The notes under the pieces were generated by a model, which saw only the letters and a list, made by a program, of their open reading frames with translations, did no database searches and was not told the DNA's origin. Both the position numbers and the translations under genes were made by a program. Below, one piece after another: positions 16,223 to 52,469 of a stretch of DNA of 64,000 bases (position 1 is the stretch's first letter; every line of letters starts with the position of its first letter). This DNA is from Wenyingzhuangia gilva (lineage in GTDB: Bacteria > Bacteroidota > Bacteroidia > Flavobacteriales > Flavobacteriaceae), in NCBI RefSeq assembly GCF_030519655.1, contig NZ_JAUMIT010000002.1, positions 372,001-436,000 of the forward strand, given 5' to 3'.

Positions 16223-17098
16223 TTAAGCTCTGTTTTCTCCAGCCAATAAAGTATTCTTTAATAACATGGCAATCGTCATTGGACCAACACCTCCAGGAAC
16301 AGGAGTGATAAAAGCTGCTTTTGGTGCTACAGATTCAAAATGAACATCACCTGCCAAACGGAAACCATTCTTTTTAGATGGATCGTCTAAACGAGTAATT
16401 CCAACATCAATAATAGTCACCCCTTCTTTTACCATGTCACCAGTTAAGAATTCTGCAACTCCCAAGGCAACTACAATAATGTCAGCCTTTAAAGTCAATT
16501 CTTTTAAGTTAGCCGTTCTTGAGTGTGCCACGGTTACAGTAGCATCACCAGCAGCTCTTTTTTGAGACATTAAAATACTCATAGGTCTTCCTACAATATG
16601 AGAACGACCAATAACGACTACATTTTTACCAGAAGTAGGAACCTTGTAACGCTCCAATAATTCCATTACTCCATAAGGAGTAGCAGGTAAGAACGTAGGG
16701 AGTTCTAAAGCCATTCTACCTACATTTGTAGGGTGAAAACCATCTACATCTTTAGTCGCATCAACGGCTAATAAAACTTTATGCTCATCAATGTGTTTTG
16801 GTAAAGGCAATTGTACAATATAACCATCAATAGCGTCATTATTGTTTAATTCTTCTATTTTAGCTAACAATTCAGCCTCTGTAGTTTCGGTTGGTAATTC
16901 TATTAGAGTAGAATCAAAACCAACTAACTCACACGCTTTAACTTTAGCTCCAACATAGGTTTTACTGGCACCATCATTTCCAACAATAACAGCTGCTAAA
17001 TGAGGTGTTTTTTTACCTTGAGCTTTTAATTCTTTTACTTTTTCTGCAATTTCAGCTTTGATGTCTGCAGAGGTTTTTTTACCGTCTAATATTGTCAT
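16223..17098 (-). CDS. folD: Bifunctional methylenetetrahydrofolate dehydrogenase/cyclohydrolase
   Basis: A 291-residue FolD that interconverts 5,10-methylene-, methenyl- and 10-formyl-tetrahydrofolate for purine and formyl-methionine synthesis. Seen: [13 protein letters not shown] with the catalytic Lys, [24 protein letters not shown], the NADP-binding [13 protein letters not shown], and [15 protein letters not shown] near the end. The leader just upstream carries ACTGAAAACTG repeat units that also flank the next gene; those repeats end 21 bases before the folD start codon. Confidence 0.95.
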
Positions 17099-17119
17099 CT
17101 CTTAATTAGTTTACAGTTT

Positions 17120-17132
17120 TTCAGTTTTCAGT
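17120..17132 (-). repeat. Inverted repeat, left copy, beside four-helix-bundle gene
   Basis: Plus strand TTCAGTTTTCAGT, the exact reverse complement of 17541-17553. It lies inside a patch of related ACTGAAA units (17109-17142) between folD and the four-helix-bundle gene. Confidence 0.75.
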
Positions 17133-17157
17133 AATCAGTTTTGCAAATGAATTTAAG

Positions 17158-17526
17158 TTACTTACTTCCGAATCTTTCTGGGTTATTAATCATGTAATTA
17201 ATAAGCTTGCCTATTTCTTTACTTTTGTTTTCTAATTCAATTGCTTTTTCTTGGTCAATGTATTTACAAGCTAAAGCAAAGTCTATCCATAATTGTGTTT
17301 CAGAATTTTCACTATCAGCATCGGAAAGTTTACTTCTGAAATGCTTAATATACTGCCTCTTTCTATAGGCTTCTGCAATAGCAGAACAAACAGCTCTACT
17401 TGATCTTACTACTAGTGAAGTTAATGCAAATTGTTCATGTGATGGAAAATCTTTACTAACTTGAAAAACTTCCATAGCTAATTCAAATCCTTTTTGATAT
17501 GCTAGTAAAGTTTTAAAACTCATCAC
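17158..17526 (-). CDS. Four-helix-bundle protein (S23/IVS family)
   Basis: A 122-residue all-helical protein of the family often named 23S rRNA intervening-sequence protein (TIGR02436). Seen: SFKTLLAYQKGFELAMEVF, then FPSHEQFALTSLVVRSSRAVCSAIAEAYR with the typical small-residue/Arg pattern, KHFRSKLSDADSENSETQLWID and a final helix to NPERFGSK. Homologues occur inside 23S rRNA insertions, and the related Avd works in diversity-generating retroelements, but neither an rRNA gene nor a reverse transcriptase is present here. The gene sits between folD and ffh, flanked by perfect 13-bp inverted repeats. Its function is unknown. Confidence 0.85.
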   Translation of the reverse strand: MMSFKTLLAYQKGFELAMEVFQVSKDFPSHEQFALTSLVVRSSRAVCSAIAEAYRKRQYIKHFRSKLSDADSENSETQLWIDFALACKYIDQEKAIELENKSKEIGKLINYMINNPERFGSK

Positions 17527-17540
17527 TTATAATTTAAATA

Positions 17541-17553
17541 ACTGAAAACTGAA
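17541..17553 (+). repeat. Inverted repeat, right copy, beside four-helix-bundle gene
   Basis: Plus strand ACTGAAAACTGAA, exact reverse complement of 17120-17132; the two enclose a 434-bp segment that holds one gene. Confidence 0.75.
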
Positions 17554-17574
17554 GACTAAGTATTGCTAACTTGT

Positions 17575-18921
17575 TTACATTCCCGGCATTCCACCTTTCA
17601 TTCCTTGCATCATCTGCATCATTTTTCTAGAACCACCACCTTGCATCATTTTCATCATTTTACTCATTTGGAAGAATTGCTTTAATAATTGGTTTACTTC
17701 GGTAATAGAAGTTCCAGATCCTTTGGCAATTCTCTTTTTTCTAGAAGCGTTAATTACTTTAGGCTCTGTTCTTTCTAAAGGAGTCATAGATTTTATAATC
17801 GCTTCAATTCCTTTAAACGCATCATCATCAATATCAACATCTTTTAAGGCTTTTCCAGCACCTGGTATCATTCCAACCAAGTCTTTCATGTTTCCCATTT
17901 TTTTAATTTGCTGAATTTGACTTAAGAAATCATCAAAACCAAATTGATCTTTGGCGATTTTCTTTTGTAATTTTCTAGCTTCTTCTTCATCATATTGTTC
18001 TTGGGCACGTTCTACTAAAGAAACAACATCTCCCATTCCTAAAATACGATCAGCCATACGTTCTGGATAGAAAACATCTATGGCCTCCATTTTTTCTCCA
18101 GTACCAATAAACTTAATAGGCTTGTTAACTACAGATTTAATAGTTAAAGCAGCACCACCACGCGTATCACCATCTAATTTTGTTAAAACAACTCCATCAA
18201 AATTTAACAAATCATTAAAAGCTTTGGCAGTATTCACAGCATCTTGACCTGTCATAGAATCCACTACAAATAATGTTTCTTGTGGATTTACCGCTTTGTG
18301 AATGTTAGAGATTTCGGTCATCAAAGCTTCATCAATTGCCAAACGACCAGCCGTATCTATAATTACTGTATTTTTACCATTAGCTTTTGCATAAGCAATT
18401 GCATTTTTAGCAATTTCTACAGGATTTTTATTTTCAATTTCAGCATATACTTCAACACCAATTTGTTCTCCAACAACTTGTAGCTGATTAATAGCGGCAG
18501 GACGATAAACATCGGCTCCAACCAAAAGTACTTGCTTGGTTTTTTTAGTTTTTAGATAGTTGGCTAACTTTCCAGAAAAAGTAGTTTTACCAGAACCTTG
18601 TAAACCAGCCATTAAAATTACAGTTGGTGTACCTGTTAAATTTACTCCAGCAGTTTCGCCTCCCATTAATTCAGTTAACTCGTCTTTTACAAGTTTTACC
18701 ATTAATTGACCTGGATTCAAGGTGGTTAATACATCTTGTCCAAGGGCTTTTTCTTTAACTCTTACCGTAAAATCTTTAGCAATTTTAAAGTTTACATCGG
18801 CATCTAACAATGCTCTACGTACTTCTTTTAAAGTTTCTGCTACATTTACTTCTGTTATTTTTCCGTGTCCTTTTAAAAGATGTAAGGCTTTATCTAGTTT
18901 ATCTGATAAATTATTAAACAT
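17575..18921 (-). CDS. ffh: Signal recognition particle protein Ffh
   Basis: A 448-residue SRP54 GTPase that targets inner-membrane and exported proteins co-translationally with SRP RNA and FtsY. N domain about 1-90; G domain with GLQGSGKTT (106-114), DVYRPAAINQL, IIDTAGRLAID, TKLDGDTRGGAAL; Met-rich M domain with MGDVVSLVERAQ and a terminal run of MMQGM-type residues that grips signal sequences. The length is typical. The SRP RNA gene is not recognised nearby. A perfect -7 box lies 33 bases upstream. Confidence 0.96.
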   Translation of the reverse strand: MFNNLSDKLDKALHLLKGHGKITEVNVAETLKEVRRALLDADVNFKIAKDFTVRVKEKALGQDVLTTLNPGQLMVKLVKDELTELMGGETAGVNLTGTPTVILMAGLQGSGKTTFSGKLANYLKTKKTKQVLLVGADVYRPAAINQLQVVGEQIGVEVYAEIENKNPVEIAKNAIAYAKANGKNTVIIDTAGRLAIDEALMTEISNIHKAVNPQETLFVVDSMTGQDAVNTAKAFNDLLNFDGVVLTKLDGDTRGGAALTIKSVVNKPIKFIGTGEKMEAIDVFYPERMADRILGMGDVVSLVERAQEQYDEEEARKLQKKIAKDQFGFDDFLSQIQQIKKMGNMKDLVGMIPGAGKALKDVDIDDDAFKGIEAIIKSMTPLERTEPKVINASRKKRIAKGSGTSITEVNQLLKQFFQMSKMMKMMQGGGSRKMMQMMQGMKGGMPGM

Positions 18922-52402: not shown

Positions 52403-52469
52403 CAGTTTTAAGTGAGCAGTGGTCAGTAAAACTAACTGCAGACTGAAAACTAGAAACTGAAAACTAAAC
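52403..52469 (+). repeat. ACTGAAAACT repeat patch upstream of dnaJ
   Basis: Two copies of ACTGAAAACT (52442-52451 and 52456-52465) plus inverted partners AGTTTT (52404-52409) and CAGT/ACTG pairs. The same core forms the inverted repeats that flank the four-helix-bundle gene at 17.1-17.6 kb. The patch ends only four bases before the dnaJ ATG. Confidence 0.6.

Follow-up and report, generated by a model that had tools for sequence, protein, structure and literature searches.

The spacer between folD and ffh in Wenyingzhuangia gilva lies within a window of 64,000 nucleotides (RefSeq assembly GCF_030519655.1, contig NZ_JAUMIT010000002.1, positions 372,001 to 436,000) and contains a single gene for a four-helix-bundle (4HB) protein of the S23/IVP family, flanked by mirrored arrays of degenerate heptamers. 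We found that this architecture, an inward-pointing heptamer array followed by the 4HB gene and a mirrored array, is general. The gene and its arms are gained and lost jointly in the spaces between genes, and this suggests that they form a very small mobile element. An earlier note on this DNA had described the locus as a possible mini-cassette that is framed by perfect 13-bp inverted repeats and mobilised in trans. The core of that idea is supported by the framing of the gene at most loci and by its absence from relatives, while the enzyme acting in trans is a proposal that we discuss below.

The 4HB protein in the window scored 83.4 bits against TIGR02436 (cut-off 24) and 93.6 bits against PF05635 (cut-off 33.8, E = 1e-26) in profile searches. 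Both scores are above the curated cut-offs for the models, in agreement with the family assignment in the earlier note, and the protein sequence also matches the solved homologues 2gsc and 2rld. It lacks Q30 and N41, which are both invariant in the family alignment, and given this loss it may be specialised or decaying. As had been noted from the open reading frames, the unit encodes no transposase: the Pfam and NCBIfam matches include only 4HB/Avd models and two models of hypothetical proteins with scores below their cut-offs.

The sequence TTCAGTTTTCAGT is located at positions 17120-17132 and its reverse complement at 17541-17553, and these coordinates, like those of GTTTACA and of the 4HB gene between folD and ffh, are exactly as first described. 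The arms are degenerate tandem arrays of the 7-bp unit CAGTNNN that point inward and are mirrored around the 4HB gene, and Tandem Repeats Finder identified a period of 7 with 4.9 copies at 17108-17142. Rather than fixed terminal repeats, the 13-bp repeats are one register of these larger arrays, and it is the period-7 array rather than the 13-mer that is the significant feature. There are 60 exact 13-bp inverted repeats within 450 bp of each other in the window, as compared to a mean of 2.6 in shuffled sequences, and such a repeat alone is weak evidence since ordinary hairpins are probably also counted among the 60. The exact 13-mer, which had been suggested as a probe for other 4HB genes, has no further occurrence in the genome beyond the two sites in the window, because the other copies carry other heptamers. 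GTTTACA at 17109-17115 and 17573-17579 was rejected as a target duplication, as the earlier note had also judged: read along the gene strand, the left copy shares bases with the stop codon of ffh, and its counterpart is part of the heptamer array. Direct duplications were seen solely at sites that are cleaner than that of the window.

The 3.35-Mb genome contains eight TIGR02436 loci, of which at least three are decayed, and every one of them is framed by its own heptamer, such as GTAGTTG/CAACTAC, AGTACNN/NNNTACT and AAAGTTA/AACTTT. A period of 7 was found at 53% of the 4HB loci of the genus versus 6% of the control genes in the genome, and the mean lag-7 signal in the 4HB flanks of the genus was 10.7, as compared to 3.9-5.2 for other lags and 8.8 for the lag-14 harmonic. 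To cover a broader diversity, we surveyed 80 named 4HB loci that span about 20 phyla, with Acidobacteria, Chloroflexi, cyanobacteria, candidate-phylum bacteria, Clostridia and one Methanophagales archaeal genome among them, and applied a lag-7 score of at least 9 in the flanks as the threshold. This score was reached at 71% of the loci, while other lags reached it at 0-6%, except for the lag-14 harmonic (55%). The two arms of a locus pair with each other better than with the arms of other loci (17.4 versus 8.9, p = 6e-14), and their polarity is convergent in 23 of 29 loci, with the G-richer strand running toward the gene on both sides. Arrays were also recognised by eye at nine of ten plasmid loci, nine of the ten being cyanobacterial. 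The family is thus framed by such repeats at most of the loci examined, and none of the 14 other, non-heptamer loci that were checked lies in rRNA.

At 58 of the 67 diverse loci for which both neighbours were called, the unit is co-directional with both flanking genes, and it is opposed to both at only one. This strong co-orientation would be expected if the unit lacks a promoter of its own or if insertion is tied to transcription. It also favours an explanation in which the units represent an operon-spacer version of the intervening sequence (IVS) of 23S rRNA; in this case the stem formed by the arms in the transcript would be cleaved by RNase III, and the protein would act on RNA. Avd proteins, which are related to the 4HB family, work with RNA. 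Furthermore, the protein family and the inverted termini are as in the rRNA IVS (PMC4990558). However, the mismatches between arms are of the G-U type in 147 cases and of the A-C type in 197 cases on the sense strand, and such a deficit, with no excess of wobble pairs, runs counter to the pattern expected if a sense RNA stem were under selection. One cyanobacterial unit is antisense to its operon, which encodes ribonucleotide reductase, and the arms are direct rather than mirrored at nearly a fifth of the loci. We consider an RNA function of this kind unlikely.

The 4HB gene is absent from the folD-ffh interval in all six congeners, so its position is not one that relatives have kept. The comparison of this interval, as proposed in the earlier note, confirmed the absence of the gene but not the presence of a bare spacer. 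The sister species (96/89) and four further congeners hold a gene-less pair of the AGTACNN type, and the sixth holds a mixed gene-less pair. Copies at folD-ffh are also present in other genera, but together they do not form a single clade, and a single folD-ffh origin was rejected (approximately unbiased test, p = 3e-7). Instead, the copy in the window clusters with copies from a different operon site with 100/100 support. The simplest account of these phylogenetic patterns is that the unit arrived recently and independently at this site. It would have entered the spacer after the split from the sister species, with a copy lineage at another operon site as its putative source.

Filled and empty versions of the same site were identified on cyanobacterial plasmids. 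A plasmid spacer that contains a unit in Trichormus variabilis ATCC 29413 and Scytonema NIES-4073 lacks it in Nostoc linckia NIES-25 and Tolypothrix PCC 7601, and the flanks of the filled and empty spacers are 97.6% identical. The filled site reads AAAAA-GTAAT-(unit)-GTAAT-TAACAAATAA and the empty site AAAAA-GTAAT-TAACAAATAA, a difference of 423 bp plus a 5-bp direct repeat. The arms of the units in T. variabilis and Scytonema differ by exactly 14 bp. At a second site, in Nostoc ATCC 53789, TTCTA flanks the unit on both sides, and the empty spacer has a single copy, as seen in two sister plasmids of 93% identity. The next gap of the same operon contains a unit of another subfamily, with a repeat of about 5 bp that is identical at four of five positions. 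At two further sites the repeat is ambiguous or has a length of about 7 bp. Two other candidates were rejected. The cas6-cas4 gap of Dolichospermum (L373, 880-1180), considered as an empty site for the 4HB unit present in Anabaena sp. 90, is occupied by another insert with inverted repeats, GTAGGTTGGGTT...AACCCAACCTAC. In G138, two stretches of about 5.9 kb that are 100% identical lie close to the two ends of a single 3.4-Mb contig (L346/L347), and we interpret them as a large duplication or as redundancy of the assembly rather than as transposition.

The heptamer is related to the protein that it frames. Among pairs of copies from non-homologous sites, similar arms were found in 80% at a protein identity of at least 0.70 (n = 5), and in 22%, 12%, 6% and 5% as the identity falls. 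In 78 diverse loci the heptamer tracked the protein to a degree reached by none of 500 permutations, and by none of 1000 when these were stratified by GC content. In the subfamily of the window protein, the arms are of the CAGTNNN type at folD-ffh and almost everywhere else, and heptamers of other types are found in the two members that diverge most. Conversely, the subfamily of the unit in the thiolase-site spacer varies between genera, and the heptamer varies with it. Such a coupling would also be expected if the 4HB protein regulated its own operon by binding to its arrays, and if the units had spread by ordinary horizontal transfer and recombination without transposition. Arrays near start codons have indeed been proposed as regulatory sites in Beggiatoaceae (PMC4679880). 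However, the presence of the same subfamily in unrelated operons, the scattered distribution and the several decayed copies fit an element better, as does the insertion into empty spacers with direct repeats, and we regard a conserved regulator as very unlikely.

The arrays co-occur with the gene at the level of the genome. In the order, the 4HB gene is present in 78 of 136 genomes. In ten 4HB-rich genomes, 16 period-7 arrays with a score of at least 10.5 were found over 400 kb, as compared to none over 400 kb of eight or nine 4HB-free genomes, in a small sample that is not corrected for kinship; at a score of 9, the numbers were 19 and 2. Periods 5 and 11 did not differ between the two sets; at periods 8, 10 and 13, weak arrays were also somewhat more common in the 4HB-rich set. 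In contig C1 (1.12 Mb) of the window's genome there are 35 period-7 arrays scoring at least 12, whereas no other period, multiples of 3 and 7 aside, has more than 5. The period-7 arrays are mostly gene-less and 79% intergenic, and some form tight mirrored pairs. The gene-less arrays matched the heptamers of the 4HB genes in the same genome weakly, with 33 matches versus 20 expected and a mean match that was reached by 67 of 2000 random sets.

That so many arrays are gene-less could indicate that they arise in spacers like microsatellites, when the polymerase slips, that template switching at hairpins maintains the likeness of the arms and that the 4HB gene is a tolerated passenger. Known bacterial heptamer arrays have been ascribed to slippage over the polymerase footprint (PMC4692102), the arms differ in length by whole heptamers, and the heptamer of the orthologous copies at the hemE site varies between species of the genus. 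Slippage leaves unexplained why this gene family is framed in about 20 phyla, why protein and heptamer are paired across sites, why arrays are nearly absent from 4HB-free genomes and why there are bounded insertions with direct repeats. As a full explanation we find it improbable.

We consider it fairly probable that the 4HB gene and its arms represent a minimal mobile unit; its architecture and mobility are visible in the comparisons above, whereas its protein would recognise its own arms and an enzyme would move it in trans. The proposed transposable unit is about 0.42-0.48 kb and would consist of the inward array, the gene and the mirrored array. The 4HB protein, which is a homopentamer in the solved relative XCC0516 (2gsc; PMC4990558), may bind, at the DNA level, the arms of the unit that encodes it. 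A host or trans-acting nuclease or polymerase would then cut or copy the unit into spacers between co-transcribed genes, and because of this placement the unit would need no promoter of its own. The gene-less pairs may be deletion derivatives or non-autonomous copies, and the arm length would shift by slippage of whole heptamers. A broader claim, which we put forward tentatively and with somewhat less than even confidence, is that these units represent a new class of mobile elements in bacteria and at least one archaeal genome, in which the sole gene encodes a 4HB protein and the ends are the heptamer arrays that it recognises, and that both the heptamer arrays of bacterial spacers and the S23 genes of rRNA IVS derive from this class as their common source.

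Several observations weigh against a mobile unit. Exact 5-bp direct repeats are found at two sites only, and those at other sites are identical at four of five positions, about 7 bp long or ambiguous. The GTAAT place on related plasmids contains a truncated remnant in Nostoc C052 and a gene-less mirrored pair in Brasilonema, and since related plasmids keep a remnant or the arms, gain and precise loss are not distinguishable there. No clean duplication is present at the window site, where the spacer as a whole is unlike that of the sister species, so that the insertion event itself is not visible. The arms are alike in direct orientation at 18% of the loci, and the length of 7 bp is not absolute, as octamer arms exist in some genera and hexamers in some folD-ffh arrays. 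The coupling of protein and arms could, taken alone, also be explained by joint inheritance of arms and gene. Finally, the unit contains no catalytic domain, and no partner transposase or reverse transcriptase was identified, although no search was aimed at reverse transcriptases.

The features of the window are listed in the table below, including a second, gene-less pair.

Table. Coordinates of the 4HB unit, its neighbours and a gene-less heptamer pair in the window
Feature	Position	Strand	Description
4HB gene (S23/IVP, TIGR02436)	17158..17526	-	122 aa; GTG start as called; begins MMSFKTLLAYQKGF
Arm downstream of 4HB gene	17108..17142	.	About 5 degenerate heptamers, CAGTTTT/CAGTAAT on + strand; contains 17120-17132
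Arm upstream of 4HB gene	17541..17561	.	About 3 degenerate heptamers, mirrored, ACTGAAAACTGAAGACT on + strand; contains 17541-17553
Entire folD-ffh spacer, filled by the unit	17099..17574	.	476 bp; 77-106 bp and gene-less in six congeners
folD	16223..17098	-	Downstream neighbour of 4HB gene, co-directional
ffh	17575..18921	-	Upstream neighbour of 4HB gene, co-directional
Gene-less mirrored pair	52403..52469	.	Between grpE and dnaJ; same heptamer type as the window unit (CAGTNNN ... NNNACTG)

A number of additional observations were made at other loci. In contig C1 of the window's genome (G000), a run of spacers between co-directional genes at about 412000-475000 (L201-L204) contains direct, same-orientation AGTGAGN arrays, often trailed by TTCGATG and GTTTAAAGTTC blocks, and no 4HB heptamer of that genome was seen to match them. 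Octamer arms, such as AAGATACA, occur in one genome group of the order (L242, L249, L253, L255, L257 and L258). On cyanobacterial plasmids, 4HB units are located inside CRISPR-cas operons, between cas6 and cas4 or cas10 and cmr3 (L360, 1177-1536; L363, 1171-1527; L365, 1171-1539). In an Acidobacteriota genome, two tandem nadA riboswitch matches lie close to a 4HB locus (L175, 7356-7471).

If true, the mobile unit would merge three long-standing puzzles into a single problem that is open to testing, namely the role of the orphan S23/4HB proteins, the excess of 7-base tandem repeats in bacterial spacers and how split 23S rRNAs came by their S23 genes. A mobile element this small, at about 430 bp and with no nuclease, would imply a novel host or trans-acting enzyme. 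Should the protein recognise its own heptamer, a ready-made specificity code would be available in the many protein-heptamer pairs that exist in nature.

Among known systems, RAYT/REPIN consists of a gene with flanking short inverted repeats and of gene-less pairs that are dispersed in gene-carrying genomes. Heptamer arrays without a gene are similarly found in 4HB-rich genomes (16 versus 0 per 400 kb, in a small sample of arrays and not of pairs alone). However, the heptamer unit has no tyrosine (Y1) transposase, and rather than a single genome-wide repeat, the eight 4HB loci of one genome have different unit-specific heptamers. Inverted ends are shared with miniature inverted-repeat transposable elements and insertion sequences, and the exact 5-bp direct repeats at two clean sites in relatives may correspond to their target duplications. 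The heptamer unit differs from these elements in that it encodes no transposase and its ends are not a fixed sequence. The Avd protein of diversity-generating retroelements is a distant homologue of the window protein (28.6 bits, below the Avd cut-off of 80).

Heptamer arrays have been described as TAACTGA repeats in Beggiatoaceae, cyanobacteria and Bacteroidetes (PMC4679880), and as GGGAATC repeats in Xanthomonas, with 70-75 convergent pairs (PMC4692102). Like our arms, these and the cyanobacterial short tandemly repeated repetitive (STRR) arrays are degenerate 7-bp repeats in tandem that are intergenic and often form convergent inverted pairs (PMC4679880, PMC4692102), but the units described here each have their own heptamer that is tied to their own protein. 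We found no mention of 4HB genes in these two papers, and no paper joining heptamer arrays with S23 genes in the open-licence literature, a scope outside of which subscription papers and bioRxiv preprints fall. Arrays and S23 genes are each known separately, and relative to that literature their connection is new. Another parallel is the 23S rRNA IVS with an S23 open reading frame in Leptospira and Coxiella, which shares the protein family, the short unit, the inverted termini around the reading frame and a suspected mobile origin (PMC4990558). The units described here differ in that they are located in operon spacers, such as folD-ffh in the window, and in that their arms are element-specific tandem arrays of heptamers.
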